A stretch of 64,000 nucleotides of DNA, from NCBI RefSeq assembly GCF_000226095.1, contig NC_016472.1:248001-312000 (forward strand), read 5' to 3'. Numbering within the stretch: position 1 is the first letter of the stretch; each line of letters starts with the position of its first letter. The notes beneath the pieces are model-generated. The model worked only from the letters and a program-made list of their open reading frames with translations, made no database searches and was not told the DNA's origin. The stretch comes from Thermothelomyces thermophilus ATCC 42464 (taxonomy: Eukaryota; Ascomycota; Sordariomycetes; Sordariales; Chaetomiaceae). Shown in pieces: positions 20,961 through 64,000 of this stretch. A program made the translations under genes and the position numbers.

Positions 20961-21428
20961 CCTAGAAGCCTCCGCTGCTGCCGCCGCCTCAGCCTCCTCA
21001 CGCTCCACTCGCTCTAACTCCTCTATACTATTAATACCCCGAGTAATAGCCCTTATTATCTTCTCAAACTATATCTGCTTTTGTTTCCGAAGACAAAGGA
21101 CTTGCTCCTTAGTAGCTATAAGTTCATCCTTAAGTTTCTAATGCTAAGCCGTAATAGACCGAAGCTAAGTAGGGGAGACGCTAAGAATGTTATAATTCGA
21201 GCGTTTGTTACGGATGCACTCTATGTATCGAGAAGAGTTAGCTTTCGAGACCTTATATAAACTAAGGCCTTTAGACTCATATAGCGAACAAGGACGTATC
21301 GTTAAAAGGCTATCTAAAGAAAAAATCACCATAAGAAGGTAATTAGCACGAAGAGTCGATATAGCAGGTTTAGATTTTAACTTCTTTCTTATATAATTAG
21401 CTATCTTGATAATATTGTAGGAAGGCAA
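20945..21428 (-). pseudogene. Element A antisense ORF: cysteine-rich and coiled-coil protein
   Basis: On the strand opposite to gag-pol, between pol and the 3' LTR, an ORF opens at 21428 (MPSYNIIK) and reads, through TAG/TAA at Gln/Trp positions, for about 160 codons. A Cys array (C/Y positions in CSLYESKG, SSRYIECIRNKRSNY) is followed by a coiled coil (KLKDELIATKEQVLCLRKQKQ), then SIEELERVEREEAEAAA. The first 87 codons are uninterrupted. Tyr at Cys positions fits TGY to TAY RIP changes. No intron is evident. Function unknown; see findings. Confidence 0.65.
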
Positions 21429-28400: not shown

Positions 28401-31400
28401 ATTAGAGTAGTAGGTCAAGACTAGAGAAATCGCTAGCATCGCTATAGACGGAACTAAGTTCGTATACTATTAGAAAACCGAGAGACGAGACAAGACTAGG
28501 GAAGTGCCGAAGGAATACAAAGGATACCTAGCATTCGAACCAAAACATCTAAAAGGATTACTAGAATATGGCCTATAGGATCACGAGATCAAGCTTAAGG
28601 AAGGAGCATGACTAAAGTTCTTCAAGATCTACTATACGAGCTAAATGTAAAACGAAGAACTTAAGCGATATTTGGAGGAGAACCTTCGAAGAGGATATAT
28701 CTGCCTGTCGACATCGCTAGTAGGCTATCTAATCCTGTTTATGCCTAAGAAAGATAGAAAGCTATAGTTATGTGTTAACTATTAGTAACTTAACAAACAG
28801 ACCGTGAAAAACCGATACCTATTACTGCTAATCTTATAGCTCTAAGATTAGTTAGTAGGAGCCTAATATTTTATGTATCTTGACTTGCTATTGGCCTATA
28901 ACTATAAATAGATCAAAGAAGGCGACGAGTGGAAAACGGCCTTTAGGACACCCTATAGCTACTATAAGTACCTTGTCATGCCATTCGGACTTACGAATGT
29001 GCTAGCAACGTTCTAAGCCCTAATTAATTAAGCTATCTGACCCTTTCTCGATAAATTTATAGTATATTATCTTAATGATATACTTATCTTCTCTAAGACG
29101 ATAGACAAACACTAGAAGTATATAAGAGTAGTACTAGACGTGCTATACGTGTATAAGCTATTAGTTAATAAGGAAAAGAGCGAATTCTATATTAAGAAGA
29201 TAGTCTTTTTAGGATACGAAATATCCCTAGGACAAATCCGGATAGAACTTTCAAAGGTTAAAGCTATTAAGAATTGGCTATAACTAACGACAGTTATAGA
29301 AGTATAAAGCTTTATCGGATTTACAAACTTCTACCAAATGTTTATTAGGAACTTTAGAGCAATCGTACGACCTTTGTACAAACTTACCAAGAAGAATACT
29401 AGATTCCAATAGGAAGGATAATATGAGCAAGCATTTATATAGATCCGCGATGCCATTACTAAAGACCTAGTACTAGTATTACTAGATCCTAAGAAACCAT
29501 TTGAGGTAGAAACGGACGCTTTAGACTACGCTATCGGAGGACAATTAGGATAACGAGACAGATAAGGAAAGCTATATCCTATAGCCTTCTTTTCAAAGAA
29601 GCTCGACAGACTACGTCTCAATTATCTGATCTACGATAAAGAACTACTTACGATTGTCGAAGCTTTCAAGGAATGGCGACTATACCTTAGTAGCACAATT
29701 GAACTAGTATAGGTATATACGGATTACAAGAACCTATGATACTTTACAATGACGAAAGAGCTCAACAGATGACAAATACGATAGGCAGAATTCCTCGTAG
29801 AATTTAACTTCGAGATCTGCTATAAGAAGGGCAAAGAGAATATACGAGCAGACATCTTAAGCTGACGAACGGATTATACGGAAGAACAGATAGAAATAAC
29901 ACTACCATTATTCAAGGAACAAATAGATAAGACGTTGTATTACGAAACGTAGGCACCTATGGAAGATGATCTACTTGACTTATTCCTAGAGTATTGTATA
30001 ATCTTTTGGGAAGAAAGGACTAACAAGATATAGTATTAAGTAGTACCCGGACTAGTGGTACCTAATGAAATAGAAGAAAGAGATAGGAAACTCTGGTACC
30101 GAGGCAAAGCGTATATCTATGACAAAGATCAACAGCTACAAATGATTTAAGAACTCTACGAGTCGAAACTCGGAGGATATAAAGGAGTTATAAAGACTGT
30201 TACACAAGTCAAGAAACACTACGACTTTCCACAGTTAACGACAAGAGTCAAGGAAGTTATACGAAGCTGTGACATCTATAACCGAAGCAAAACGGCACGA
30301 TATAAGCTATATAGGCTACTTTAGCCACTACTAATACCTGATAAACTATAGAGCTCGGTCACAATAGACTTTATTACGAAGCTGCTAGAATCTAAGGATA
30401 TAGCTATAGGAGTAGTCTATAATAGTATCCTTACTATAGTAGATCGCCTAACTAAATAGGTATACTTCTTTCCTTATAAGGAGTCTTAGACAGCAGAACA
30501 GTTAGTAAACGTAATCTATCGGCAAGTTATATCAGTGCACGCTTGGCCATAAGAATAGATTATAGACAGAGACACCAAGTTTATATCGAAGTTCTAGCAA
30601 GCGTTAATATGACGATTAGGCATTAATAGCAAGCTATCAACAGCATATTACCTATAGACTGACGGACAAACGGAGCAACTAAACTAAGTCGTCAAATAGT
30701 ATCTCCGCTCTTACGTTAACTACTAGCAAAACGACTAGGTCATGCTATTGCTAATAGTATAACTCGCTTATAATACGATACTAATAGAAATGACTAAGGT
30801 TATACCATTCTTCGCGAACTACAGATATAAAGCAGACCTTAGATAAGGACTAGAAGTCACCGTACTACAAGCAACAGTCAAGGTAGAACAAATGTATACG
30901 CTATATGAAATGCTAAAGTAGGAACTCGAGTTTATTAAAACAAGGATAAAGAACTACTACGACAAACACAGGCTTGAGGGACCTTACCTAGAGAGGGGAG
31001 ACAAAGTTTACCTGATCTTATAATATCTACAAACTAAACGACTAAGTGAGAAGCTAGACTTCAAAAAATTAGGACCCTTCATTATCAAAGAACGAATCTT
31101 GACATCTAACTATCGACTATCATTACCGTCATCTATACGACTACAGACAGACGTTTTTTATGTTTCACTTCTCGAACTAGTACCGAAAAATGCTAAGGCT
31201 GCTACGTATATCAAAGCAGAGGACGAAGAGAAAGAGTAAGACGTCAAAGAAATTCTAGATTTATATATTATCAATAGAGGACTATAATATCTAGTCAAAT
31301 AGCTTGATTTTAGACTAGAAGATAACTTGTAGGAACCTATTAAGAACTTAAACTGCCCTAAGAAACTAGAACAATTCTATCGATAGAACCTAGATTAGCC

Positions 31401-31430
31401 AAAGGCAAACCTAGGACAGAACCGAAAATA
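25493..31430 (+). pseudogene. Element D gag-pol (RIP-inactivated)
   Basis: The gag start codon has become ATA (25493). The zinc-knuckle region is near 26393-26440 (YYNCGKKGHYKQEY, one Cys kept). The long post-knuckle extension runs from 26,440 to 27,890. Protease is near 27,875-27,920 (VDSRAEINLI). The RT catalytic motif near 29,071 reads YYLND in place of YLDD, so the active site is lost. RNase H lies near 29,500-29,870 and integrase near 30,150-31,000. Numerous TAG/TAA codons. Confidence 0.82.
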
Positions 31431-31930
31431 GCACCCTAGTTAATAACCTCGACGCCACCACTAAGTTACACGATGGCCCCCGATTCCTGCTATTCTACCG
31501 CCTCCAATTCGTCCAGATTCGACAAACCCCGTGTAACCATATCTGCCCCCTTCTCTACCAGGAACTCTTGTTATTTACAAACCCGAGTTAGACAGGCTAA
31601 CGCCTTAGACGCTTTATACTAATATTCCTATAATAAGGCTTCGGCCTCTTTCTCTTTAGCCTTTAAACGACATTACTCGCGTATAATATAATCTACTGCA
31701 TGGCGATTAGAAGTGTACCCTTATAAGGAAATAGGAACTTATAAGAAGAAACTAGAACGCTAGAACTATCGTAAATACGACCCTGACGTATATAAGCCTT
31801 ATAGTAACGAGATTTTTCAATTATCTTATACACTCGGTTATACTCTATACAATAGGAACACGCTATCATTATAGACCTGTAATCAGAAATAAACTAAGCT
31901 AAACGCTTATAACAAATAAATACTAGGGAT
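31358..31930 (-). pseudogene. Element D antisense ORF: Zn2Cys6-like plus coiled coil, one intron
   Basis: On the minus strand an exon containing MIACSYCIEYNRVY.. shows Cys or RIP-derived Tyr at exact C-x2-C-x6-C-x8-C-x2-C-x6-C spacing. A 47-nt intron (31742-31696; donor gtaagt changed to ataagt, branch ctaat, acceptor gcag) joins it in phase 1 to a coiled-coil exon (LKAKEKEAEALL, QEFLVEKGADMVTRGL, SNLDELEAVE). The frame ends at TAG 31360-31358, overlapping the 3' end of pol. The start is uncertain; the frame extends upstream of 31869. Confidence 0.72.
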
Positions 31931-35900: not shown

Positions 35901-38830
35901 TACTATTAGAAAACCAAGAGACGAGACAAGACTAGGGAAGTACTAAAGGAATACAAAGGATACCTAGCATTCGAACCGAAATATCTAGAAGGACTACTAG
36001 AATACGGCTTATAGGATTATAAGATTAAGCTTAAGGAAAGAGTATAACTAAAGTTCTTTAAAATCTATTATATAAGCTAGACTTAGAACGAAGAATTTAA
36101 GTAATATTTAGAGGAAAACCTTCGAAGAGAACATATCTACCTATCGACATCGCTAGTAAGCTACCTAATCCTATTTATACCTAAGAAAGATAGAAAGCTA
36201 CGGTTATATGTTAACTATTGGTAACTTAATAAATAGACCGTAAAAAACCGATACCTGTTACCGCTAATTTCATAGCTCCGAGATTAGTTAGTAGGAGCTT
36301 AATATTTTACACGTCTTAACTTGCTATTAGCCTATAATTATATATAGATTCAAGAAGGCGACAAGTAGAAAACGGCCTTTAGGATACCCTATAGCCATTA
36401 CAAGTACCTCGTCATGCTATTCGGACTTACGAACGCGCTAGCAACGTTCTAAGCCCTAATTAATCAAGCTATCTAACCCTTTCTCGATAAATTTACGGTA
36501 TATTATCTCGACGACATACTTATTTTCTTTAAGACAATAGACGAATACTAGAAGTATATAAAAGTAGTGCTAGATGTGCTATATATATATAAACTATTAG
36601 TTAACAAGGAAAAGAGCGAATTCTACGTTAGGAAAACGGTATTTTTGGGATATAAAATATTCCTAGGACAAATTCGGATAGAACCTTTAAAGGTTAAAGC
36701 TATTAAGAATTAGCTACGACCGACGTTAGTTACGGAAGTACAAAGCTTTATTAGATTTGGAAACTTCTACTAGATATTCATTAGAAATTTCGGAGTGACT
36801 ATACGATCTTTGTACGAACTTACCAAGAAGAGCGCTAAATTCCAATAGGAAGAGCAATACGAGTAAGCATTTATACAGATCCGTAACGCTATTACTAAAG
36901 ATCTAGTACTAGTACTACCAGACCCTAAGAAGCCATTTGAGGTGGAAACGGACGCTTTAGACTACACTATTAGAGGACAATTAGAACAACGAGACGAATA
37001 AGGAAAGCTATATCCTATAGCCTTCTTTTTAAAGAAGCTCGATAGACTACGTCTTAATTATCCAATCTATAATAAGGAATTACTTACAATTATTAAAGCT
37101 TTTAAGGAATGGCGACTATATCTTAGCGGTATGATTAAACCGGTATAAGTATATATAGATTATAAGAATTTACGATACTTTACGACGACAAAGGAGCTTA
37201 ATAGACGACAAATACGATAGGTAGAATTCCTCGTGGAATTCAACTTTGAGATCTGCTATAAGAAGGGCAAAGAGAACGTACAAGCAGATATCTTAAGCCG
37301 ACGAACGGATTATACGGAAGGACAAATAGAAATAATACTACCGTTATTTAAGGAACGAATAGACAGAACGCTGCATTACGAAACGTGGATACCTATAGAA
37401 GATGATCTACTTGACTTATTCCTAGAATATTACGTAATCTTTTGAGAAGAAAGGATTAACGAGATATAGTATTAAGCAGTACCCGGACTAGTAGTACCTA
37501 ACGGAGTAGAAGAAAGAGATAGGAAACTCTAGTACCAAGGCAAAGTATATATCTATAATAGGGACTAATAGCTACGAATAATTCGAGAACTCTATAAGTC
37601 GAAACTTGGAGGATATAAAGAAGTTACGAAGACTATTGTACAAGTTAGGAAACACTATAACTTTCCATAGTTAATAGCACGAGTTAAGGAAGTTATATAG
37701 AACTACGACATTTATAATCAAAGCAAAACGGCACAATATAAGCTATATAGGCTACTTTAGCCACCGCTAATAGCTGACAAACTATAGAGTTTAGTTACAA
37801 TAGACTTTATTATAAAGCTACCAGAATCTAAGAATATAGCTATAGGAGTAACCTATAATAGTATTCTTACTATAGTAGATCGCCTAACTAAATAGGTATA
37901 CTTCTTTCCCTATAAAGAGTCCTAGATAGCTAAATAGCTAGTAAATGTAATCTATTAGCAAGTTACATTAGTATATGCTTGGCTACAAGAATAAATTACT
38001 AACAGAGACACTAAGTTCGTATTAAAGTTCTAGTAAGCGTTAATATAACGATTAGGCATTAATAGTAAGCTATTAATAGCATATTACCTACAGACTAACA
38101 GACAAATAGAGTAACTAAACCAAGTTATTAAGTAATACCTCCGCTCTTACGTCAACTACTAGCAAGACGACTAGATTATACTATTACTAATAGTATAACT
38201 TGCTTATAATATAACATTAACGGAAACGACCAAAGTCATATCGTTCTTCGCAAACTACGGATATAAAGTAAACCTTAGGCAAGAACTAGAGGTTATAGTA
38301 CTAAGAGCAGTAGTCAAAGCAGAACAAATGTATATACTATATAAGAAGCTTAAAAAGAAACTCGAGTTTATCAAGACCAGAATAAAGAACTACTATAACA
38401 AACATAGGCTTAAGGGACCTTGCCTAGAGAGGGGAGACAAAGTCTACCTAATCGTACGAAACTTACGAACCAAACGACTAAGTACGAAGCTAGACTTCAA
38501 GAAGGTCAGACCCTTCCTTATTAAAGAACGAATTTCGACATCTAACTACCGACTATCGTTACTATTATCTATACGACTATAGACGGATGTTTTTTATATT
38601 TCACTTCTTAAACTAGTACTAAAGAATGTCAAAGTTGCTATACACATTAAAGCAGAAGACAAGGAAGAAGAATAGGACATCGAAGAAATTCTAGATTCAC
38701 GTATTATTAACAGGGAACTATAGTATCTAGTCAAATGGCTTGATTTTAGACTAGAGGACAACTTATAGAAACTAGTTAAGAACTTGAACTGCCCTAAGAA
38801 ACTAAAATAGTTCTATTAGTAGAATCTAGA
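32929..38830 (+). pseudogene. Element E gag-pol (RIP-inactivated)
   Basis: The gag start is mutated (ATA at 32929). Zinc knuckle near 33,832-33,880, extension to about 35,300, protease near 35,315. The RT motif YYLDDILIF is intact near 36,500. RNase H to about 37,320, where a 70-codon patch (37233-37445: FNFEICYKKGKENVQADIL) is free of stops. The integrase C-terminal patch (38328-38582: RGDKVYLIVRNL) is also open. The rest is riddled with TAG/TAA. Confidence 0.83.
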
Positions 38831-39283
38831 TCGACTATAGGCACTAGCTCGGACAAAACGGCCAAGTCGGCCTCCGACAAATCTAGGCCTAAAGAAGACT
38901 AGTTAAACAGGACGTTAGCACCCTAGGACCCTGTCTAAAGTTAAGTCTAAAGAACGAAAAGGGCCTCTTTAGCATTAGCCTCTTCTTGTTCTATACGTTT
39001 TTGTTTGGATATAATCTTTATTACTATAAAAGATTAGCTACAAACATTAAGGTAATAAACTAGGTCACGAATAAGCAGACGCTACATCGGAACTATCGCA
39101 AGAACGACCCTAACGTATGTACTCGCTATAGCGAGAAGAGCCTGATACTATACGACAAGCCAAGTTCCGCTTAAAACACTACGAACACGGTATAACGTCT
39201 ATACCAGAAGAATCGATAAAAGAAGCAAGCGTGGCGTGCTGTTAGGATTTCGAAGATCGGCGCTTAGAGATACGATCTGCTAT
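38794..39283 (-). pseudogene. Element E antisense ORF, coiled coil partly deleted
   Basis: The minus-strand exon reads from a mutated start (ATA at 39283) to a Cys array VIPCSQCFKRNLACR followed by SSRYSEY and GRSCDSS, giving exact C-x2-C-x6-C-x8-C-x2-C-x6-C spacing with two Cys as Tyr. The intron (branch gctaatc, acceptor ttttatag) leads to a coil exon that, compared with element G, lacks a block of about 50 codons. Ends at TAG 38796-38794 inside the pol 3' region. Confidence 0.68.
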
Positions 39284-41629: not shown

Positions 41630-42057
41630 TGTGACGAACCCAACTCAGACTTCTTCTAAAAGGGTCCAGACGGAGGTAGGTGTAGTGGGACAAGCAGGCA
41701 GGTCGTCTAAGGGATTCGGTGAAGCCAAAGGGTTCATAACAACACTTAGAGTTGTCTCTTACAGTAATCAGCAATGCTTAGTATAAGTACTGTGATTGTG
41801 ATTGTTACCACTGGTGAACTCCCAGAGTCCACCATAACGAGTGACTATCTACATGTATATATAATCCTGGGATCACTAGCAGTCGTGGTGATCATTCATA
41901 CTAGCTTACCTGGCTTATATCGTAAGCTAGTGATCCTCTGCTGGGATCATTTCTTGCCAAGCGTGATCCTGTCCTGATTGGTCTATTATTCCTTCAGCTT
42001 GATTGGCCTGTTTGTGCTAATGGCTTAGGCAGCATCTATATGTATATTTCTATGACA
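41630..42057 (-). repeat. Element G 3' LTR
   Basis: 428 bp, E type. Read on the minus strand it starts tgtcatagaaatatacat and ends gggttcgtcaca. A plus-strand open frame across it (41774-41977) is a shadow of the LTR. Confidence 0.9.
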
Positions 42058-42182
42058 TAATGCCCTCCTTCCGAGGCTTTCGACCTAAAAGCCTTCTTTT
42101 AGGCCGTTTCAAATAGCGCTAATATCCTTCCTATGTATGCCTCGTAATTTTCCCTTTTTCCGTATTGCTAGTGGCTGATAAG

Positions 42183-42825
42183 ATGGCAGATTGTGTTTCT
42201 AAGCGCCGATCCTCGAAATCCTAATAGCGCGCCGCGCTTACTTCTTTTATTGATTCTTCTGGCGTAGACATTATACCGTGTTTATAGTGTTTTAAGCGGA
42301 ACTTAGCTTATTATATAGCGTCAGGCTCTTCTTACTATAGCGAGTACGTATATCAGGGTCGTTCTTACGATGGTTTTAACGTAGCGTCTGCTTATTCGTG
42401 ACCTAGTTTGTTGCCTTAATGTTCGTGGCTAATCTTTTATAGTAACGAAGATTATATCTAAATAAAAGCGTGTAGAACAAGAAGAGGCTAATGCCAAAGA
42501 GGCCCTTTTTGTCCTTTAGACTTAACTTTAGACGGCTGTCGGTCAATTAGCTCGTCTTCGTCGCCAGAAACGTTTCTTGAAGGAGCAGGGTTCCGAGCTG
42601 TTTCATCGAGGTATACAGTCTCTAGAGGAAATAGAGGCAGAAGAACAGAGGGTGCGGGATTCCGAAGCGCGTGTTATTAGTAATATACGGTCCTAGGGTG
42701 TTGACGTCCTGTTTGACTGGTCTTCTTTAGGCCTAGATTTGTCGGAGGCTGACTTGGCTATTTTGTCTGAGCTAGTGCCTACGGTCGATTCGGGTTCTGC
42801 CGGTAGAACTATTCTAGTTTCTTAG
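42183..42825 (+). pseudogene. Element G antisense ORF: Zn2Cys6-like plus coiled coil (best copy)
   Basis: The plus strand is antisense to G's gag-pol. Exon 1 runs 42183-42393: ATG at 42183 (MADCVSKRRSSKS), then Cys/RIP-Tyr positions at C-x2-C-x6-C-x8-C-x2-C-x6-C from IIPCL. The intron is 42394-42442 (49 nt; donor GT changed to AT, branch ggctaatc, acceptor tatag), phase 1. Exon 2 runs 42443-42825: coiled coil (RVEQEEANAKEAL, QLARLRRQKRFLKEQGSEL), IQSLEEIEAEEQRVRDSEARV, then an acidic/hydrophobic tail with DVLFDWSSLGLDLSEADLA. It ends TAG 42823-42825 (or TAA 42841 if that TAG is a RIP product). The 3' part overlaps the pol end. The translation reads like a regulatory or nucleic-acid-binding protein; function unknown. 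Confidence 0.75.
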
Positions 42826-45800
42826 GGTAGTTCAAGTTCTTAACTAGTTCCTATGAGTTATCTTCTAGTCTAAAATCAAGCTATTTGACTAGGTACTGTA
42901 GTTCCCCGTTAATGATACGTGAATCTAGAATTTCTTTGACGTCCTATTCTTCTTCCTCGTCTTCTACTTCAATGTATATAGCAACCTTGGCGCTCTTTAG
43001 TACTAGTTCAAGAAGTGAAATATAAAAAACATCTATCTGTAGTCGTATAGATAATAGTAACGATAGTCGGTAGTTAGATATCGAAATTCGTTCTTTAATA
43101 ACGAAGGGTCCGACCTTTTTAAAGTCTAGCTTTGTGCTTAGTCATTTAGTTTGTAAGTTTTATACAATCAAGTAGACTTTGTCTCCCCTCTCTAGGCAAG
43201 GTCCCTCGAGCCTATGTTTGTTGTAGTAGTTCTTCATTCTAGTTTTGACAAACTCGAGTTCCTTTTTAAGCTTCTTATATAGTGTATACATCTGTTCTAC
43301 TTTGACTACTGCTCTTGGCACTATGACCTCTAGTCCTTGCCTAAGGTCTACTTTATATCCGTAGTTTGCGAAGAACGGTGTGACTTTGGTCGTTTCTGTC
43401 GGCGTCATATTGTAGGCGAGTTATGCTATTGGCAATAGCATGACCTAGTCGTCTTACTAGTAGTTAACGTAAGAACGGAGATACTGCTTAACAACTTGGT
43501 TTAGTCGCTCCATTTGTCTGTCAGTCTGTAGGTGATATGCCGTTGATAGCTTACTATTAACGCCTAATCGTTATATTAACGCTTGCTAGAACTTCGATAT
43601 AAACTTCGTATCTCTGTCGGTGATCCATTTTTGTAGCTAAGTATATATTGATATAACTTGCCGATAGATTATATCTACTAACTATTCTGCTATCTAGGAC
43701 TCCTTATAGGGAAAGAAGTATACCTACTTAGTTAGGCAATCTACTATAGTAAGAATACTGTCGTAGGTCACTCCTATAGCTATGTCCTTAGATTCTGGCA
43801 GCTTTGTAATAAAGTCCATCGTAACTAAACTCTATAGTTTGTTAGCTATTAGTAGTAGCTAAAGTAGCCTATACGGCTTATATCGTACCGTTTTGCTTCG
43901 ATTACAGATATCGTAGTTCCGTACGACTTCCTTAACTTGTACTATTAACTGTGGAAAGTCGTAGTGTTTCTTAACTTGTGCGACAGTCTTCGTAATTCCT
44001 TTGTATCCTCCGAGTTTCGACTTGTAAAGTTCTCGAATCATCCGCAGCTGCTAATCTTTGTCGTAGATATATACTCTGCCTCGGTACTAGAGTTTCCTAT
44101 CTTTTTCTTCCACTCCGCCAGGTACCACTGGTCCGGGTGCTGCTTGATACTGTGCCTCGTTAATCCTTTCTTCTCGAAAGATTGTATAGCATTCTAGGAA
44201 CGAGTCAAGTAGATCATCTTCTACGGGTATCTACGTTTCGTAATATAGCGTTCTGTCTGTTCGTTCTTTGAACAACGGTAGTATTATTTCTATTCGTCCT
44301 TCTATATAATCTGTTTATCGGCTTAAGATGTCTACTTATACGTTCTCTTTGCCTTTCTTATAGTAGATCTCAAAGTTAAATTCTATGAGGAATTCTGCTT
44401 ATTGTATTTGTCGTCTGTTAAGTTCCTTTGTTATTATAAAGTATTATAAGTTCTTATAATCTATATATACTTATACCAGTTTAATCATGCCATTGAGGTA
44501 TAGTCACTATTCCTTAAAAGCTTTAATAATCATAAGTAGTTCCTTATTATAAATCGGATAATTAAGACGTAGTCTATCGAGCTTTTTTAAAAAGAAGGCT
44601 ATAGGATATAGCTTCCCTTGTTTATCTCGTTATCCTAATTGTCCTCTGATAGCATAGTCTAAAGCGTCCGTTTCCACCTCGAATGGCTTCTTAGGGTCTG
44701 GCAGTACTAGTACTAGATCCTTAGTAATAGCGTTATAGATCTACGTAAATGCTTGCTCGTGTCGCTCTTCCTATTAGAATTCGGCGTTCTTTTTGGTAAG
44801 TTTATGTAAAGGTCGTACGATCGCTCCAAAGTTCCTGATGAACATTTGGTAGAAGTTTATAAATCCGATGAAGCTTTATACTTCCGTGACTAACGTTAGT
44901 CGGGGCTAATTCTTAATAGCTTTAACCTTTAAAGGTTTTATCTAGATTTGTCCTAGGGATATTTCGTATCTTAAAAAGACTATCTTCCTAACATGGAATT
45001 CGCTCTTTTCCTTGTTAACTAATAGCTTATACGCGTATAGCGCGTCTAGTACTGCTTTTACGTACTTCCGGTGTTTGTCTATTGTCTTAGAGAAGATAAG
45101 TATATTGTCGAGATAATATACTGTAAATTTGTTAAGAAAGGGTCAGATAGCTTGATTAATCAGGGCTTGGAACGTTGCTAGCGCGTTTATAAGTCCGAAT
45201 AGCATGACAAGGTACTTATAGTGGCTATAGGATGTCCTAAAGGCCGTTTTCTACTTGTTGCCTTCTTTGATCTGTATATGGTTGTAGGCCGATAGCAAGT
45301 CAAGACGTGTAAAATATTAGGCTCCTACTAACTAATCTTGGAGCCGTGAGATTAGCGGTAATAGATATCGGTTTTTCACGGTCTGTTTGTTAAGTTGCTA
45401 ATAGTCGACGTATAACCGTAGCTTTCTGTCTTTCTTAGGCATAAATAGGATTAGGTAGCCTGCTAGCGATGTTAATAGGTAGATATATCCTCTTTAAAGG
45501 TTTTCCTCCAAATATCGCTTAAGTTCTTCGTTCTATATCTAGCTCGTGTAGTAAATCTTAAAGAACTTTAGTTATACTCCTTCTTTAAGCTTAATCTCGT
45601 GATCCTATAGGCCGTGCTCTAGTAATCCTTCTAGATGTTTCGGTTCGAATACTAGGTATCCTATATATTCCTTTGGTACTTCCCTAGTCTTATCTTGTTT
45701 CTTAGTTTTCTAATAGTATATAAACTTGGTTCTATCTATAGCAATACTAGCGATTTCTCCTGTCTCAACCTACTACTCCAATTACAGTGCTCCGCATTTG

Positions 45801-48690
45801 TCAACGGAGAGAATAGCTATCGGCGGTTTAGCTCGTTCCTCCTGTCGTAATATCGATGTCGTTGTGCCGCCTCTTCCAGAGTCTGTAGTGGTCTGCCTGC
45901 CACTGTCTGTCTCTTACGATGGATCTATAGGATATGCCTTTCTCTAAGTATCGTCTGTTTGTGATCCTTGCATGCTCCCTATCTTACTAGTTAAATACGA
46001 CTCCGTTCGGGGTCATAGGTAGCTACTATTCTTCTAGCTAATGTCCGGGTCGTAATCTTTATGCTATAGTAACCCTAATATTATGTCTTTATTGTTGCCT
46101 ATATCTATAATGCTAAATACAACTACTATAGTCTTTCCTACTATAGTAATATTAATTAGTTTAGTTTCCTTACATACCTATTACATCGGAAATGGCCCTT
46201 TAACTATGCCATGCTTCCGCTTCATTCTCTAGGGTATCTATAGCTGATTTACAAGCGTTAGCGAAATCAGGTTTATCTCTGCTCTACTATCTACTAGTAC
46301 AAGCATTTCGTGCTATTTCCATTGTGCTATTATCTATAACCGCTTGTCTTGCCGCCGTCGTCCAAAGATTGCGGCGATTTCCTATGTTTCTGCTAGGAGG
46401 TCTTGATATAGTGGTCTCTTGCGCTAGTTCCTCCTATACTACGCTACCACTTGCCACTACGCGGGCGTTAATGGTTTCTAGGCCCCTCGAAGGGCCCTGA
46501 CCCGTTTCCTAGGTCAGTGCTAACCTCTTTAGTTATTCGGCTAATAGCGGCTTCGTCAATCGTACTCATTTCTATAAGCCATTGAGTGCTTACGGCTTCC
46601 TACCATTAGGTCTGTTCTACTTTCCGTCGTACGTGCCATAGCTTTATCTAAAGCTCCTAAATTCGTAATTTCTTTTCGTCCGCGTAATAGAGGTAATCGT
46701 TACTCTAGCACGAGTCCTATATATCTCGTCCTATTCCGTAGTACCTAGGCTAGGCTTGTCTTAGAACTATTGTAATGCTTTCTAAATTGCGGGCTTTGAT
46801 CTTCTAGAGCAATTCGGCTGCTCTGTTTCCTATATTGTAGACCTATTCCACAGGGTATAAGCCTCCGTCCCTGTTTTCCTGTCAGGTCGGCTAGTAATTG
46901 TTTTCGAATTTGTTGTAGAAGTGATATCGGCATTCGTATACTATACACTAGAACTAGGGCACTTGCGTATGTGCCTCGTATCGAGGGTATAGTCGTGTAG
47001 TGTCGCCTGGGAGGTATTAGAATTCTCTCCCGAATCCTTCCCACTATATGTAGATTGTAGGTACTCTAGTGCTAATATAGGAGTGTTTCTTCTAGTAGCT
47101 TTCCTATATATGCTTATCCTTTCTGTAGTTCGTGTGTATAAACTAGTATTCCGGGTTTCGTATGTCGTTACTAAGTTATTAGCTATTAAGATACTCGGTA
47201 TAGCTATCAGGCCCATTATATATTATAGGCTATTCTCCTTTGATAGTTTCTATAATACGTCAGAGTTCCCTCATTTCGTCCCTTATCTTAATGCTCTACT
47301 AGGCAAGTCGAGTCAAGCGCCCATCCTATTTACGCAGTTCCGTATTAAGCCGGAAAACTTCGTTATAATACCATTCGATTCGTTCCTAGAGGAATAGAAC
47401 ATTAGGTCCGGGTCTTTCGATTCCTTAGGTGTCGGTTGTCCACGATCTATCCCGCCTCTGCGTGACCGTGAAGCCCTACTATCTCAAGGCCGGGAGAATC
47501 GAAACTGGCGGTGTATATTCTCCTGCCATATCCTATTTGGCAAGACCTGTCTCTAGGTTTATAGTGACTAGTTCGGAGTATAGTGCTTATTTATCTTTAC
47601 CGTTGCCATCGTGTCCGAGACTGTCTATATCACTATCCTTGTCTTTGTAGCTTGTAGCTGCTACTTTGATGACGTCCTTAGTAGTTTTATTGATAGTCGT
47701 AATTTCCTTTCTAAGGGTTAGTTTCCATTCTTTCTTTAGGCTTTAGCATTCTTGCTTATAGTGCCCTTTCTTTCTGTAGTTATAGTAGGTAACATTGGAC
47801 TTGTCTTTGGTTATCTTCTTCTAGTCCTACTTCTACGCTACGTCTATATCTATGGCTCTAGGGTGCGTCCCGTACGAGGTACTAACGTACGCTCGCTTTT
47901 TCTTGTCGTTAGCCTTAACCGTGGTTCCATTCATTTGACCTCGTTTCTACTGCTCTCGTGTGTAAAGTCAATTATCGATCCTAATAGCCTATATAATATA
48001 TTTATCTAGAGTCTTAGGCTGATCGTACTTATATAGCTTATCCTTGACCTTTTCCTTTAGGCTATTATAGAACAATTGTATTAACGCCTCATTATTAAGC
48101 TAAGACTTAAGTATGTCCTATCTAAACTATACGGTATAGGAGGCTGCTAACTTGGTCTGTTAGAGATTGGCAAGTCTTTCTTATATATGAATCTTCTTGT
48201 CTTTGTTACTAAAAACTTTCCAAAGCTCTTCTTCGAAACGGTTATAAGATTAGAAGACTGCCTATATAAACGCGTCTCGTTCGTCTTTGTCTTCCTTAGT
48301 GAGATAGTCGTTCTATATAGGCTCGAACTATCTAAGTACCTTGCCCTCTAGTCTCGTAGCTATGTAGAGGACTTTGGCTTTGTCGTCCGGAAACTTGTCG
48401 TCATTAAGCCGGAAGTAGGATCAGAGGTTTATTAGGAATCCTATAAGATCTTCCTTAGTTCCTCCGTATTTGCTAGGTAGTTCGATCTTAATATGCTTCG
48501 CTTTAATAGTCTCGAGCGTCTCAATTTTAGTATAGGCCTCGTTAACCAACTTCTACGAGTTTTCGCGGTTCTCGAGTTCCTTGATTCGAGCTTAAGCAGC
48601 CTTATCTCTCTAGTCTAACTCCTAGATCTGCTGCTAGAGTTGACCAAGCTAAGCGAGTAGCTATTCGGCCGTGACGTTGGTAGCTATATC
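42700..48690 (-). pseudogene. Element G gag-pol (RIP-inactivated)
   Basis: Read on the minus strand: gag from about 48,690 (start codon mutated) with the zinc knuckle near 47,740-47,790, extension to about 46,300, protease near 46,290. The RT catalytic motif near 45,115 reads YYLDN in place of YLDD. RNase H near 44,350, integrase zinc-binding patch 44041-43859 (KKHYDFPQLI, NYDICNRSK) open, integrase C-terminal patch 43408-43160 open. The remainder has many TAG/TAA codons. Confidence 0.82.
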
Positions 48691-48753
48691 GATGTCAAGG
48701 TCGAAGTCACCTCCGTTCTGAACCATAATAGAACAAAGGGAGTAATAACAACG

Positions 48754-49181
48754 TATAACGAACCTAACTCAGACTTCTTCTAAAAGGGTCTAGACAGAGG
48801 TAGGTATAGTAGGACAAGTAGGCAGGTCGTCTAAGGGATTTGGTAAAGCCAAAGGGTTTATAACAACACTTAGAGTTATCTCTTATAGTAATTAGCAATG
48901 CTTAGTATGAGTATTATGATTGTGATTGTTACTACTAGTAAACTCCTAGAGTCTACTATAACGAGTGACTATCTATATGTATATATAATCCTGGGATCAT
49001 TAGCAGTCGTAGTGATCATTTATACTAGCTTACCTGGCTTATATTGTGAGCTAGTGATCCTCTGCTGGGATCATTTCTTGCTAAGCGTGATCCTGTCCTG
49101 ATTGGTCTATCATTCCTTCGGCTTGATTGGCCTGTTTGTGCTAGTGGCTTAGGCGGCATCTGCATGTATATTTCCGTGACA
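48754..49181 (-). repeat. Element G 5' LTR
   Basis: 428 bp, E type. On the minus strand it starts tgtcacggaaatatacatgc and ends aggttcgttata. Followed on the right by target duplicate agaac. Confidence 0.9.
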
Positions 49182-52600: not shown

Positions 52601-54560
52601 TATACTATTAGAAAACTAAGAGACGAGATAAGACTAGGGAAGTACCAAAGGAATACGAAGGATACCTAGCATTCGAACCGAAACATCAAGAAGGACTACT
52701 AGAACACGGCCTATATCCTATAGCCTTCTTTTCAAAGAAGCTTGATAGACTACGTCTCAATTATCCAATCTATAATAAGGAACTACTTACGATTGTCGAA
52801 GCTTTCAAGGAATAGCGACTATACCTTAGTAGTACGATTGAACCGGTATAAGTATATATAGATTATAAGAATTTACGATACTTTACGACGATAAAGGAGC
52901 TTAACAGACGACAAATACGATAGGCAGAATTCCTTATAGAATTTAACTTTAAGATCTGCTATAAGAAGGGTAAAGAGAACGTACGAGCAGACATCTTAAG
53001 CCGATAAACGGATTATATAGAAGGACGAATAGAAACAATACTACCGTTGTTCAAGGAACGAACAGACGGAATATTACATTACGAAACGTAGATACCTATA
53101 GAAGATAATCCACTTAACTCGTTCCTAGAATGTTATATAATCTTTCAAGAAGAAAGGATTAACAAGATATAGTATTAAGCAGCACTTAGACTACTAGTAC
53201 CTGACGGAGTGAAAGAAAAAGATAGGAAACTTTGGTACCGAGGCAAAGCGTATATCTACGACAAAGATCAATAGCTACGGATGATTCGAGAACTCTACAA
53301 GTCAAAACTTGGAGGATATAAAGGACTTACAAAGACTGTCGTATAAGTTAAAAAACACTACGACTTTCTATAGTTAACGGTATAAGTTAAGAAAGTTATA
53401 CGGAACTACGACATTTATAATCGAAGCAAAACGGCACGATATAAGCTGTACAGGCTACTTTAGCCACTACTAATAGCTAACAAACCATAGAGTTCGGTCA
53501 CGATAGACTTTATTATAAAGCTGCTAGAATCTAAGGACATAGCTATAGGAGTAACTTATAATAGTATTCTTACTATAGTGGATCGCCTAACTAAGTAGGT
53601 ATACTTCTTTCCCTACAAAGAGTTCTAAATAGCAGAACAGTTAGTAGATATAATCTATCGGCAAGTTACATTAGTATATACTTGGCTATAAGAATAGATT
53701 ACTAATAGAGATACCAAGTTCGTATTAAAGTTCTAGTAAGCATTAATATAATAATTAGGCGTCAATAGCAAGCTATTAATAGTATATTACCTATAGACTA
53801 ACGGACAAACAGAGTAACTAAACCAACTTATCAAGCAGTATCTCCGTTCTTACGTTAACTACTAGTAAAACTATTAGGTTATACTATTATTAACAGTATA
53901 ACTCGCTTATAATACGACGCTAACGGAAATAACTAAAGTCATACCGTTCTTTACAAACTATAGATATAAAGCAAACCTTAGGCAAGGACTAGAGGTTATA
54001 GTGCTAAGAGTAGTAGTTAAAGCGGAACAAATGTACACACTATATAAGAAACTCAAAAAGGAACTCGAGTTTATTAGGACTAGAATAAAAAATTACTATA
54101 ACAAACACAGGCTCGAGGGACCTTGCCTAGAGAGGGGAGACAAAGTCTACCTAATCGTACAAAACTTATAAACTAAATAACCAAATATAAAGCTAGACTT
54201 TAAGAAGGTCGGACCCTTCGTTATCGAAGAACGAATTTCAACATCTAACTACCGACTATCGTTACCATTATCTATACGACTACAGACAGATATTTTTCAT
54301 ATTTTACTTCTCGAACTAGCACCAAAGAATGCTAAGGTTGCTACACATATCAAAGCAGAGGATAAAGAGAAAGAATAGGATATCAAGAAAAATTCTAGAT
54401 TTACGTATTATTAATAGAGAACTGTAGTACCTAGTCAAATGGCTTGATTTCGGATTAGAAGACAACTTATAGAAATTAGTTAAGAATTTAAACTGCCCTA
54501 AGAAACTAGAACAGTTCTACCAGCAGAACCCAGATTAACCAAAGGAAAACCTAGGATAGA
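49625..54560 (+). pseudogene. Element H gag-pol with RT deletion
   Basis: gag starts near 49,630; zinc knuckle near 50,532-50,580; extension to about 52,010; protease near 52,020. At about 52,712 the sequence jumps from the pre-RT region (..GLLEHGL) directly to [13 protein letters not shown] of the RNase H region, removing about 1.0 kb including the whole RT palm compared with element E (about 36,010-37,010). RNase H and integrase follow (52,720-54,260) with many TAG/TAA. Confidence 0.82.
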
Positions 54561-55127
54561 ACTAAAGACGGCGCCCTAGTCGACAGTATCGACGGCATCA
54601 TTAATCTATAACAAAGGCATAGCAAGCGTCTCTTGCCGCTTAACCTCCTCTAACTCGTCCAAGGTCGACAGACTACGCGCTACCATATCGGCACCTTTCT
54701 CCACCAAAAACTCCTTCTGCTGACGAAGACGCCGGAGCCGTGTAAGCTTTTCGGACAACTTACGCTAAGCTTCTTCTAGACGGCGTTAGGTTTCATCTAG
54801 CTTAAGCTTGGCACGACGTTTAGCATCCTTGATACGACGCTGCTCCTAGAGAATGCAATCTACTAGAATAAACATTAGGAATTATACTTAAAAAAAAAAA
54901 AAAAGGGAGATAAGCTTATAGGAAGAAAGCAAGATACCAGAGTCATTATAAGAACAACCTTAACGAATATAGGCCTTATAACGCTTTATATATGCGATCA
55001 TTTTGTAGACAAGACCTTACGATGTGCACTAAGAGCAAGGCATAACGACAAAACCGTTCTTAGCGATATTCTAAGCAAGGGAAGCACGGTAATGTACAGA
55101 ATACGACTTCTGTTTCTCTATCAGCAT
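54498..55127 (-). pseudogene. Element H antisense ORF: Zn2Cys6-like plus coiled coil, one intron
   Basis: Exon 1 from ATG 55127 (MLIEKQKSYS) with VVMPCS and Cys/RIP-Tyr at C-x2-C-x6-C-x8-C-x2-C-x6-C. Intron 54919-54863 (57 nt; donor gtaagc changed to ataagc, T-run, branch cctaatg, acceptor ttctag), phase 1. Exon 2: coiled coil (RRIKDAKRRAKLKLDET, KLTRLRRLRQQKEFLVEKGAD), then RSLSTLDELEEVKRQE. Ends at TAG 54500-54498 over the pol end. Nearly the same as the antisense gene of element J. Confidence 0.72.
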
Positions 55128-58542: not shown

Positions 58543-58668
58543 CGATGCCCTCTCTCTAAGGCTTTTGACCTAAAAGCCCTCTTTAGGTCGTTTCAAATAG
58601 CGCTAACATCCTTTTCTATGTATACCTTGTAATTTTTCCCTTTTTCTGTATTACTAGTAGCTGACAAG

Positions 58669-59025
58669 ATAGCAAATTGTATCTCTAAACGCCAATCTTC
58701 GAAATCCTAATAGCGTGCCGTACTTACTTCTTTTATTAATTCTTCTAGCGTAGATGTTATACCGTGTTCGTGGTATTTTAAACGGAACCTGGCTTGTCGT
58801 ATAGCGTCAGGCTCTTCTCGCTATAGCGAGTGTGTACGTTAGGGTCGTTCTTACGATGGTTCCGACGTAGCGTCTACTTATTTGTAATAGTCTTAGGGTG
58901 CTAACGTCCTATTTAACTAGTCTTCTTTAGGCCTAGATTTGTCGGAGGCCGACTTGGCCGTTTTGTCTGAGCTAGTGCCTACGGTCGATCCGGGTTCTGC
59001 CGGTAGAACTGTTCTAGTTTCTTAG
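58669..59025 (+). pseudogene. Element I antisense ORF, coiled coil deleted
   Basis: The first exon is of the E/G type (start ATG mutated to ATA at 58669; VIPCSWYFKRNLACR and SRYSECVRQGRSY: five of the six Cys spacing points readable, Tyr at others). Shortly after the exon 1 end the sequence jumps to the tail block GANVLFN.., losing the intron acceptor and the coiled coil. Ends near TAG 59023-59025. Confidence 0.6.
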
Positions 59026-60834
59026 GGCAGTTCAAGTTCTTAACTAGTTCCTATAAGTTGTCCTCTAGTCTAAAATCAAGCCATTTAACTAGATACTACA
59101 ATTCCCTATTAATAATATATAAATCTAGAATTTCTTTAACGTTCTATTCTTCTTCCTCGTCTTCTACTTCGATGTATATAGCAACCTTAGCGTTCTTCGG
59201 TGCTAGTTCAAGAAGCGAAATATAAAAAACATCTGTCTGTAGTCGTATAGATGACGGTAACGATAGTCGGTAGTTAGATGTCGAAATTCGTTCTTTAATA
59301 ACAAAAGGTCTGACCTTTTTAAAGTCTAGCTTTATACTTGGTCGTTTGGTTTATAGGTTTCGTATAATCAAGTAGACTTTGTCTCCCCTCTCTAGGTAAG
59401 GTCCCTTAAGCCTATATTTATCGTAGTAATTTTTCATTCTAGTCCTAATAAACTCGAGTTCCTTTTTAAGCTTCTTATATAGTGTGTACATTTGTTTTAC
59501 TTTGACTACTACTCTTGGTACTATAACCTCTGGTCATTGCCTAAGGTCTGCTTCATATCTATAGTTCGTAAAGAACGGTATAACTTTAGTCGTTTCTATT
59601 AGTGTTATATTATAAGCGAGTTATGCTATTAGTAATAGTATAACCTAGTCGTCTTACTAGTAATTAACGTAAGAGCGAAGGTATTACTTAATAACTTGGT
59701 TTAGTTACTCCGTTTATCCGTTAGTCTGCGGGTAATATACTATTAACAGCTTGCTATTAACGCCTAATCGTTACATTAATGCTTACCAGAACTTCGATAT
59801 AAACTTGGTGTCTCTATCGGTAATCTATTCTCACGGCTAAATATGTACTAATGTAACTTGCCGATGGATTACGTCTATTAGCTGTTTAGCTATCTAGGAC
59901 TCCTTATAGGGAAAGAAGTATATCTATTTAGTCAGGCAATCTACTATAGTAAGAATACTATTATAGGTTACTCCTATAGCTATATCCTTAGATTCTAGCA
60001 GCTTTATAATAAAGTCTATTATAACCAAGCTCTATAGTTTATTAGCTATTAGCAGTAGCTAAAGTAGCCTATATAGCTTATGTCGTACCGTTTTGCTTCG
60101 GTTACAGATGTCGCGGTTCCGTATAACTTCCTTAACTTGTACCGTTAACTATAGAAAGTCGTAGTGTTTCTTAACTTGTGCGATAGTCTTCGTGACTCCT
60201 TTGTATCCTCCGAGTTTCGACTTGTAGAGTTCTCGAATCATCCGTAGCTATTAATCCTAGTCGTAGATATATACTTTGCCTCGGTACTAGAGTTTCCTAT
60301 CTCTTTCTTCTACTCTATTAGGTACTAGTGGTCTAGGTACTGCTTGATACTATACCTCGTTAGTCCTTTCTTCTCGAAAGATTACGTAATACTCTAGGAA
60401 CGAGTTAAGTAGATTATCTTCTATAGGTGTCTATATTTCGTAATATAGCATTCTGTCTATCCGTTCCTTGAATAATAGTGGTGTCGTTCCTATTCGTCTT
60501 TCCGTATGATCCGTTCGTCGGCTTAAAGCATCTGCTTGTACGTTCTCTTTACCTTTCTTGTAACGGATCTTAAAATTGAATTCTATAAGGAATTCTACCT
60601 ATTGTATTTGTTATCTATTAAGCTCCTTTGTCATCGTAAAGTATTATAGGTTCTTGTAATCCGTATATACTTATACTAGTTTAATTATACTACTAAGGTA
60701 TAGTTACCATTCCTTGAAAGCTTTAATAATCGTAAGTAGTTTCTTATTATAGATTAGATAATTAAGATATAGTCTATTAAACTTCTTTAAAAAGAAGGCT
60801 ATAGGATATAGCTTCCCTTGTCTATCTCGTTATT
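58950..60834 (-). pseudogene. Element I pol 3' part: RNase H and integrase (RIP-inactivated)
   Basis: On the minus strand the frame reads RNase H (from 60,834 down to about 60,520) and integrase (about 60,240-59,390: KKHYDFL, then the core Asp/Asp/Glu regions, then the ERGDKVYLI C-terminal block), with TAG/TAA interruptions. The left end overlaps the antisense ORF. Confidence 0.78.
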
Positions 60835-61406: not shown

Positions 61407-62042
61407 ATGCCGGTAGAGAAACAGAAGTCGTATTCTATATATTACTATGCTTCCCTTGCTTAGAATATCGCTAAGAACGGTTTTATTGTTATACCTTGCT
61501 CTTGGTACGCGTTATAAGGTCTTGTCTGTAAAATGATCGCGCGTATAAAGCGTTGTAAGGGCTATGTTCGTTAAGGTCGTTCTTACGATAGCTTAGGCAT
61601 CTTACTTTCTTCCTATAAGCTTGTCTCCTTTTTTTTTTTTTTTGTATAATTCCTAATATTTATTCTAGTAGATCGTATTCTCTAGGAGTAGCATCGTATT
61701 AAGGATGCTAAATGTTATGCCGAGCTTGAGCTAGATAAATCCTAACGCCGTCTAGAAGAAGCTTAGCACGAGTTATCCGAAAAGCTTACGTAGCTCCGGT
61801 GTCTTCGTCAGTAGAAGGAGTTTTTGGTAGAGAAAGGTACTAATATAGTAGCGTATAATCTGTCGACCTTGGACAAGTTAGAGGCAGTTAAGCGGTAAGA
61901 GCGGCAAGAGGTACCTACTATACCTTTGTTAGAGATTAATGATGCCGCCGATGCTATTGACTAGGGCGTCGTCTTTAGTTCTGTCCTAGGTTTTCCTTTA
62001 GTCGATCCGGGTTCTGCTAGTAGAACTATTCTAGTTTCTTAG
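61407..62042 (+). pseudogene. Element J antisense ORF: Zn2Cys6-like plus coiled coil, one intron
   Basis: Exon 1 61407-61614: ATG (MPVEKQKSYS), then IVIPCSWYALQGLVCK and RIKRCKGY.. with exact C-x2-C-x6-C-x8-C-x2-C-x6-C spacing (two Cys as Tyr). Intron 61615-61668 (54 nt; donor gtaagc changed to ataagc, T-run, branch cctaata, acceptor ttctag), phase 1. Exon 2: RIKDAKCYAELELDKS, RRLEEA, QKEFLVEKG, LSTLDKLEAVKR, then the tail. Ends at TAG 62040-62042, or TGA 62057 if that TAG is a RIP product. Overlaps the pol end. Confidence 0.74.
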
Positions 62043-62049
62043 GGCAGTT

Positions 62050-64000
62050 CAAGTTCTTGACTAGTTCTTATAAGTTATCTTCTAATCTAAAATCAAGCTA
62101 TTTGACTAGGTACTATAGTTCTCTATTGATGATACGTAAATCTAGAATTTCTTTAACGTCCTATTCTTCCTCTTCGTCCTTTACTTTAATATATATAATA
62201 ACCTTAGCATTTTTCAGTGCTAGTTTAAGAAGTAAAATATAAAAAATATCCGTTTGTAGTCATATAGATGATAGTAATGATAGTCGATAGTTAGATGTCG
62301 AAATTCGTTCCTTAATAATAAAGGGTCTAACCTTCTTAAAGTCTAACTTCGTGCTTAGTCATTTAGTTTGTAAGTTTCGTATAATTAGGTAAACTTTATC
62401 TCCCCTCTCTAGGCGAGGTCCCTTAAGCCTATGTTTATCGTAGTAATTTTTTATTCTAGTCCTGACAAACTCGAGTTCCTTTTTGAGTTTCTCGTATAGT
62501 ACGTACATTTATTCTACTTTAACCGCTGCTCTTGGCACCGTAACCTCTAGTCCTTGCCTAAGGTCTGCTTCATATCTGTAGTTTGCGAAGAACGGTATAA
62601 CTTTGGTTGTTTCCGTTAGCGTCGTATTATAAGCAAGTTATACTATTGGCAATAGTATAACCTAATCGTTTTACTAGTAGTTAACGTAAGAACGGAGATA
62701 CTGCTTGACAACTTAGTTTAGTCGCTCCGTTTGTCCGTTAGTCTATAGGTAATATACTATTAATAGCTTACTATTAACGCCTAATTATTACATTAACGCT
62801 TGCCAGAACTTCGATATAAACTTGGTGTCTCTGTCGGTGATCCATTTTTACGGCTAAGCATACACTAATGTAACTTGCTAATAGATTACGTCTGCTAACT
62901 GTTTAGCTATCTAGGATTCTTTATAGGGAAAGAAATATACCTACTTAGTCAGGCGATCTACTATAGTAAAAATACTATCGTAGGTCACTCCTATAGCTAT
63001 GTCCTTAGATTCTAGTAGCTTTGTAATAAAGTCTATCGTAACCGAGCTCTATAGTTTGTCAGCTATTAGTAGCAGCTAAAGTAGCCTATATAGCTTATAT
63101 TATACCGTTTTGCTTCGATTATAGATGTCGCAGTTCCATACGACTTCCTTAACCCGTGCCGTTAACTATAGAAAGTTATAGTGTTTCTTGACTTGTGCGA
63201 TAGTCTTCGTAACTCCTTTATATCCTCCAAGTTTCGACTCGTAGAGTTCTCGAATTATCCACAGTTATTGATCTTTATTGTAGATATACGCTTTGCCTCG
63301 GTACCAGAGTTTCCTATCTTTTTCTTCCACTCCGTCAGGTACCACTAGTCCGGGTGCTATTTAATACTATACCTCGTTAATCCTTTTCTCTTGAAAGATT
63401 ACGTAATATTCTAGGAACGAGTCAAGTAGATCATCTTCTATAGGTGTCTACGTTTTATAATATAGCGTTCTATCTGTTCGTTCCTTAAATAACAGTAGTA
63501 TTATTCCCGTTTATTCTTCCGTATGACCCGTTTGTTAGCTTAAAGTGTCCGCTTGTATATTCTCTTTACCCTTCTTATAGCAGATCTCAAAATTAAATTC
63601 CGCGAAGAATTCTGCCTATCGTATTTATCGTCCGTTAAGCTCCTTTATCGTCGTAAAGTATCGCAAATTCTTATAATCTATATACACTTATACTGGTTTA
63701 ATCGTACCACTAAGGTATAATCGCCATTCCTTAAAAGCTTCGACAATCGTAAGTAGTTCCTTATCATAGATCAGGTAATTAAGACGTAGTCTATCGAGCT
63801 TCCTTAAAAAGAAGGCTATAGGATATAGCTTTCCTTGTCCGTCTCGTTATCTCGATTGTCCTCCGATAGCGTAGTCTAAAGCGTCCATTTCTACCTCAAA
63901 TGGTTTCTTAGGGTCCGGCAGTACTAGTACTAGATCTTCGGTAATGGCATCGCGGATTTGCGTAAATGCTTGCTTATATTACTCTTCCTATTAGAATTTG
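62050..64000 (-). pseudogene. Element J pol 3' part: RNase H and integrase (RIP-inactivated)
   Basis: On the minus strand: RNase H region from 64,000 to about 63,540 (KKGKENIQAD block near 63,550), integrase from about 63,260 to 62,390 with zinc-binding region, core and ERGDKVYLI C-terminal block. Interrupted by TAG/TAA codons; runs off the window end. Confidence 0.8.

Follow-up and report, generated by a model that had tools for sequence, protein, structure and literature searches.

An intron-containing antisense gene diverges jointly with the U3 region in chromodomain Gypsy elements of Thermothelomyces thermophilus

Why should a long terminal repeat (LTR) retrotransposon carry, between pol and its 3' LTR, a gene that is read against gag and pol, and what might the product of such a gene do for the element? 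The question is raised by a stretch of 64,000 nucleotides from Thermothelomyces thermophilus ATCC 42464 (contig NC_016472.1, positions 248,001 to 312,000; the whole stretch is called the window hereafter), which is AT-rich from about 14 kb to its end and holds in that part related Ty3/Gypsy elements in both orientations. These elements are of the chromodomain type and have been mutated by repeat-induced point mutation (RIP). We report that such elements, here represented by element G (41630-49181, minus orientation, LTRs of about 428 bp), contain an antisense gene with an intron, that this gene is under purifying selection and is conserved in distant fungi, and that it diverges between element types as one block with the U3 region of the neighbouring LTR.

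The antisense gene had been noticed in a sequence-only reading of the window, and the observation is confirmed: a profile built from 17 database relatives matches elements A, D, E, G, H, I and J, all at E <= 0.01 (3.5e-15 for A, at 20778-21308; 4.2e-45 for the best, in I), and finds zero matches in the reversed window. Pfam and PDB sequence searches made directly with pieces of the window gave no match. On the strand opposite to gag-pol, G contains a six-position Cys/Tyr array (42279-42368) followed, after a change of frame, by a coiled-coil segment. The array spacing described for D, E, G, H and J, which is 2-6-8-2-6 residues with Cys or Tyr at each position, is found in those five and additionally in I (54948-55037), whereas the array of A, which the same reading had included among the six-cysteine copies, departs from it (about 2-7-9-2-7, by eye). 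Internal deletions have removed two features ascribed to all seven elements, the coiled coil and an SL(D/E)E block, from E and H; the block survives in RIPed form in A, D, G, I and J. The copy in G had been placed correctly at 42183-42825, but position 42825 belongs to a RIP-type TAG and the homologous stop codon is the TAA at 42841-42843. The exon and intron limits of G were set by eye against the intact copies described below, and the features of the window are as follows, F1, F2 and F3 denoting types of the U3-plus-gene block.

41630-41847, plus strand: R-U5 half of G's 3' LTR, given in the reading direction of the antisense gene; almost uniform across all types
41848-42057, plus strand: U3 half of G's 3' LTR (type F2), containing TATA and repeats that resemble GGATCA/GATCAC; specific to the type, and presumably the antisense promoter region
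42058-42120, plus strand: complement of the polypurine tract of G, with a short inverted repeat beside it; kept in all types looked at
42183-42393, plus strand: exon 1 of the antisense gene of G, with the basic N-terminus and the six-cysteine array; RIPed
42394-42442, plus strand: intron of the antisense gene of G, phase 1, 49 nt, its 5' GT reading AT
42443-42843, plus strand: exon 2 of the antisense gene of G, with the coiled coil, the SLEE block and a C-terminal tail that overlaps the end of pol; RIP-type stops inside
41848-42781, no strand: divergent block of U3 and antisense gene in G, its limits transferred from the comparisons of F1, F2 and F3
42844-43420, minus strand: 3' terminal part of pol in G, with the integrase tail and the chromodomain; domain identities taken from pieces of L024, an intact relative
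48758-49181, minus strand: 5' LTR of G
20778-21308, minus strand: antisense gene remnant of element A, a cassette type of its own (profile match)
31352-31902, minus strand: antisense gene remnant of element D, a mosaic cassette with the gene nearest F1 and the U3 nearest F2/F3
38809-39283, minus strand: remains of the antisense gene in element E (F2), lacking the coiled coil through deletion
54483-55127, minus strand: antisense gene remnant of element I (F1)
58636-59070, plus strand: remains of the antisense gene in element H (F2), with exon 2 largely deleted
61407-62054, plus strand: antisense gene remnant of element J (F1)

The window alone is insufficient to establish that the gene is spliced, the 5' splice site of G reading AT, and the support for this claim comes from intact copies elsewhere in the genome. 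A genome search with the related protein P0016, in which the best 150 of 985 candidates were scored and 217 matches were counted and listed in part, yielded 18 insertions with a stop-free exon 2 among the matches listed (L009-L026). They lie in 18 different flanks, share one exon 1 sequence and two exon 2 variants, and their exons are open, with a total length divisible by three. Each holds a GT...AG intron of 66-80 nt with a branch-like site, as judged with a loose pattern. Because of a run of 19-33 T, whose length can also be altered by sequencing error, intron lengths fall into all three residues modulo 3 (9, 4 and 5 copies), so that half of the copies would shift frame if unspliced; the other nine meet two TGA codons each when the intron is read through. 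By eye, the place and phase of the intron are identical in F1, F2 and F3. Its ends fit the pattern at 30/30 F1 loci (24 GT-AG, 6 AT-AG), in 21 of the 33 F2 sequences (11 GT-AG, 10 with RIP-type ends) and in one of two F3 sequences, the remaining 12 F2 sequences and one F3 sequence lying outside the pattern, some of them with a variant 5' site. Four database relatives from unannotated contigs of 901-3955 bases (P0002, P0007, P0008 and P0009) cross the junction without the intron and for this reason are taken to be cDNA; P0003 and P0015, both from contigs of 3920 bases, are split by the intron, and P0012-P0014 and P0027 read through it.

Since near-identical stop-free copies stand amid others, among those listed, that bear RIP-type stops, the family L009-L026 has probably moved recently. 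One of its members, L015, seems from the flank before its LTR, examined by eye, to be nested within the antisense gene of an older RIPed copy. At the LTR edge of L024, about position 451 of the gene strand with the LTR start as origin, an upstream ATG arises from the complement of the polypurine tract and opens a short reading frame ahead of the antisense gene. Both a conserved upstream reading frame beginning at the LTR edge and a second intron in the 5' untranslated region were considered and dropped on account of a stop in F3 and the lack of a splice that would keep the frame, both judged by eye. Beside the polypurine tract lies a short perfect inverted repeat, GGCTTTCG-ACC-CGAAAGCC in L024 (gene strand 466-484 from the LTR start; 42075-42093 in the window), which is found in 65/65 sequences (62 loci and 3 window pieces) when RIP changes are allowed and is kept although the flanking U3 and 5' untranslated region differ between types.

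The antisense frame is under purifying selection. Between F1 and F3, transversions at codon positions 1, 2 and 3 number 41, 24 and 66 over 149 codons, the overlap with pol being excluded. The Nei-Gojobori (NG86) proportions of synonymous and nonsynonymous differences (pS/pN) in this frame are 0.75/0.36 for F1-F3, 0.78/0.41 for F1-F2 and 0.69/0.37 for F2-F3, though synonymous change is saturated and the F2 and F3 copies used carry RIP-type changes; as these add transitions, the transversion count is the safer of the two measures. In the two shifted frames and in two of the three opposite frames pN/pS is near or above one, and the third opposite frame, with which third positions are shared, shows part of the selection signal. 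The gene is read towards pol and ends opposite the coding sequence of the pol C-terminus. The pol frame of L024 passes through the integrase core (PF00665, E 2.4e-8, score 34.6 against a cut-off of 32.6 bits) and then the chromodomain (PF00385, E 8.9e-15), both identified by scanning two pieces, in the order that defines a chromodomain Ty3/Gypsy element, and stops at gene-strand position 1108-1110; the antisense stop ends at 1232, giving a tail-to-tail overlap of about 123 nt that takes in roughly the last 41 codons of the antisense gene.

How the gene relates to the rest of the element was examined module by module, using transversions, of which RIP makes none. Between types, they amount to 0.5-1.4% in R-U5 (2.5-6.9% against A) and 0.1-1.6% in the last 1 kb of pol, 5.6-19% from the LTR edge to the start codon, 11.4-36.1% in U3 and 20.5-34.3% in the antisense gene outside the overlap; within types (F1, I and J; F2 and G) every module stays at or below 1.4%. 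The interiors of A, D, E and G tell the same story, with 0-1.4% between types in gag-pol windows, 1.9-4.4% in the junction window and 13-30% in the 3' region, while E and G, which are of one type, differ by 0-1% throughout. The divergent block begins at LTR position 219-234, at the TATA region, and ends at 1117-1170 (F1 or F3 coordinates), just past the chromodomain. A tree built from 35 exon 2 regions assigns the three host types to three clades shared with other species, Canariomyces appearing in both the F1 and the F2 clade; the fork supports are 96/92, 98/92 and 96/97, and in all 9 of the 32 inner branches reach such support. Types shared across species within near-identical gag-pol imply old types set in young gag-pol. 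In all 65 sequences (62 loci, 3 window pieces) the U3 and the gene belong to the same type, as adjacency alone would also predict, and the one mosaic, D, has a gene nearest F1 (20.9%) and a U3 nearest F2/F3 (14-17%). U3 and the antisense gene thus behave as an exchangeable cassette, and their joint variation in an otherwise nearly constant element suggests that a regulator and its control region are exchanged as a unit.

Some of the U3 regions contain repeated motifs, which are candidate binding sites. GATCAC occurs six times and GGATCAC five times in the U3 of F3, and 0/200 shuffles reach either maximum. The U3 of F1 has GGTGATAA three times (reached in 0/200 shuffles at k=8, 6/200 at k=7 and 67/200 at k=6), and F2 copies have GGATCA four times (4-6/200 at k=6, 1-19/200 at k=7, 0-1/200 at k=8).

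The gene is not confined to this genome. A database search with a piece of G returned four proteins, including the intact 200-residue P0002 with spacing 2-6-8-2-6; two further searches, the second of which scored the best 8000 candidates by shared words, listed 25 and 44 proteins, and the matches listed comprise 63 distinct related proteins. Among them are proteins from other Sordariales and from Botrytis, Sclerotinia and Monilinia, with P0040 and P0060 in B. cinerea and P0034 and P0057 in S. sclerotiorum. Three annotated proteins, P0010, P0011 and P0026, have tails that align with integrase-chromodomain DNA on its antisense strand (E 3e-11, 2e-11 and 7e-6), which places the gene antisense to Gypsy pol in Corynascus similis, Staphylotrichum tortipilum and Chaetomium globosum and supports the suggestion that small fungal hypothetical proteins may be copies of it. 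The tail of P0003 matches the pol strand instead of the gene strand, and because a rearranged contig is suspected this protein was used for its intron only and left out of the DNA context. Searches of viral contigs (queries P0016, A3 and A2) and genome contigs (A3) gave pattern matches but no confirmed relative, so that the DNA context is drawn from the host genome and from the protein tails of the three other species. Six annotated T. thermophilus proteins match the family profile (P0042, P0052, P0054, P0055, P0056 and P0061; MYCTH_105130 and others) and, from the three sequences inspected, look like mis-spliced or RIPed fragments of the transposon gene.

The product, of about 200 residues, is predicted to have a basic N-terminus, a six-cysteine domain resembling a zinc cluster, a helix taken as a coiled coil (residues 67-132, 66 residues) and a tail modelled with low confidence; the mean predicted local distance difference test score of the AlphaFold2 model is 78.8. 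Gal4-type Zn2Cys6 domains follow the pattern C-x2-C-x6-C-x5-12-C-x2-C-x6-8-C. The cysteines are kept across very distant relatives, and 36 of the 63 proteins show the array spacing under a loose pattern: 17 are 2-6-8-2-6, ten are 2-6-8-2-8, three are 2-6-9-2-6 or 2-6-9-2-7, and six (P0022, P0036, P0041, P0045, P0046 and P0051) have a second gap of seven and so fall outside the strict Gal4-type spacing, which is found in 30; the loose pattern is absent from 27. Spacing and the coiled coil after it are thus as in Gal4-type factors, and the predicted fold is weakly similar: all nine PDB rows listed in a structure comparison are Gal4-type domains, the Hap1, Gal4, Put3, Leu3 and Pho7 domains among them, and the array profile finds Leu3, Lac9 and Gal4 as its best PDB sequences (E 0.06-0.45). 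Two results weigh against a Gal4-type assignment. No scanned member reached the Pfam Zn_clus gathering score (PF00172, 21 bits), 10 of the 35 alignment members matching at E up to 1 with a best E of 0.037 and printed scores of 7.3-13.8 bits. The basic residues expected between cysteines 2 and 3 lie instead in the second half, their means in the first and second gap being 1.4 and 2.9 (16 distinct arrays, taken from 18 proteins with the spacing used in this test), compared with 4.6 and 1.1 for eight host domains; exchanging the order of the array halves raises the score in 16/16 arrays, yet the score itself stays low. The Gal4-type label of the sequence-only reading thus holds for spacing and, weakly, for predicted fold, but not by the Pfam cut-off, and these are also domains that, unlike Gal4-type factors, are carried by a retroelement.

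With these observations in hand, we lean, at a little better than even odds, towards the whole of the following account: this is a real, selected and spliced antisense gene of chromodomain Ty3/Gypsy elements, which acts as regulator of its own U3 within a transferable cassette. The gene would be transcribed from the 3' LTR; its protein would bind DNA as a coiled-coil dimer in the Gal4-type manner and would tune sense transcription by acting on the U3 that belongs to the same element type. Genomic RNA has the complement of the gene immediately ahead of U3. Regulator and promoter would therefore enter another element jointly if strand transfer reached the 3' terminus of a foreign RNA and a single template switch within pol followed; the outcome would be near-identical gag-pol and R-U5 with unlike U3-plus-gene cassettes. 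The sequence-only reading is partly supported overall: its gene withstands all three refuting conditions set there, since stop-free copies keep the exons open, the frame is under purifying selection and the cysteine spacing recurs in related proteins, and the protein that it proposed may regulate the LTR or host chromatin. Decidedly more speculative is a sharper form of our account, in which the zinc-cluster protein recognises the repeated motifs of its own U3, strand transfer prevents the two from being parted, several orthogonal pairs of regulator and promoter travel with a single gag-pol, and the U3 subfamilies of other fungi are specificity types. HBZ of human T-cell leukaemia virus type 1 (HTLV-1) is a spliced antisense gene, expressed from the 3' LTR, whose product has a coiled-coil dimerisation region and regulates the viral promoter; it belongs to a retrovirus and has a basic leucine zipper instead of a zinc cluster, and serves as an analogy only.

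The alternative that fares best is that U3 and the gene diverge jointly as mere fellow travellers at the 3' end of the RNA during template switching, with no functional pairing. Somewhat short of an even chance in our estimation, it is compatible with a regulator, so that its odds overlap with those of the account we prefer. Adjacency by itself predicts co-transfer, and the mosaic D, which joins an F1-nearest gene to a U3 of the F2/F3 class, speaks for it, as does the crapaud element of Podospora anserina. In the available parts of its description, this LTR element with a chromodomain, likewise in a RIP fungus, forms 14 U3 subfamilies whose divergence ends at the TATA box; R-U5 and most of the interior, which is largely homologous, are common to them, and both template switching and promoter selection are suggested (PMC10787394). 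Unlike the elements studied here, it is described there without an antisense gene (0 occurrences of the word antisense) and with two open reading frames (ORFs) in the legend to Fig. 2 (PMC10787394). That the block is bounded at the TATA region on one side and where the chromodomain ends on the other, and that some U3s have type-specific repeats, counts against mere co-travel, though both are compatible with it too.

It is rather unlikely, in our view, that the protein acts elsewhere, for instance as a nuclear accessory that anchors integrase or the pre-integration complex on chromatin or at a DNA site and that diversifies in step with integration targets and not with the LTR. A zinc cluster with a coiled coil would suit a DNA tether of any kind, there is a chromodomain at the end of the adjacent pol, and nuclear products are reported for some plant antisense ORFs in the passages available (PMC7264820); but the divergent block takes in U3 and stops at the TATA region, neither of which a pure targeting factor predicts, and gag-pol, integrase included, is nearly invariant between types. 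Less probable still is that the RNA matters and the protein is secondary, antisense transcription from the 3' LTR forming double-stranded RNA with the genomic RNA and tuning silencing. The transcript would overlap pol and probably U3, and regulation through double-stranded RNA has been proposed for plant antisense ORFs, as far as the source was available (PMC7264820), whereas selection acts on amino acids, the cysteines persist in very distant relatives, and codon structure and a conserved intron phase are not predicted by a pure RNA role. That the frame arose by chance opposite conserved pol and was shaped by the codon structure of the overlap, an idea to which the last 41 or so codons and the signal in one opposite frame lend something, is highly improbable and already contradicted by a gene that lies mostly outside pol, by its selection, intron and homologues in another fungal class, and by the empty search of the reversed window.

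Antisense genes of this general kind are known, as are U3 subfamilies. Boty elements carry the antisense gene brtn (Zhao et al. 2011, as cited in PMC8365987, PMC7264820, PMC4227169 and PMC5987419), and a BRTN-like sequence occurs in an assembled Monilinia transcript, its strand not being stated in the passage seen (PMC5987419). Boty is, by these citing descriptions, a chromodomain Gypsy element with an extra gene antisense between pol and the 3' LTR, the same arrangement as is found here, and the family studied here, which extends to Botrytis, Sclerotinia and Monilinia, is for that reason very likely the one to which brtn belongs; the likeness is one of descriptions, and the citing passages mention neither a zinc-cluster array nor an intron, selection or coupling to U3. 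Plant antisense ORFs between pol and the 3' LTR (Grande gene23, RIRE2 and Retand), alike in position and orientation by description and not by sequence, have products which, in the portion of the review available, show no clear similarity to known proteins and are nuclear in some cases (PMC7264820). The literature searched, as far as its texts were available and with Zhao et al. 2011 itself outside it, contains no description of a zinc cluster, an intron, selection or U3 coupling for such genes; relative to those texts, what is new here is the joint divergence of U3 and antisense gene.

Two puzzles bear on these elements. For the antisense genes near the 3' LTR in plants and Botrytis no function is assigned in the passages seen (PMC7264820), and the available parts of the crapaud paper do not settle what causes U3 to divide into many subfamilies within an element that is otherwise mostly constant (PMC10787394). 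Both meet here in one structure, a conserved gene for a zinc-cluster-like protein that lies next to U3 and shares its divergence in a single block. The finding offers a concrete, testable hypothesis, namely that a regulator and its own promoter would be swapped as a unit, and it accounts for a group of small, unannotated fungal proteins as products of transposon genes.

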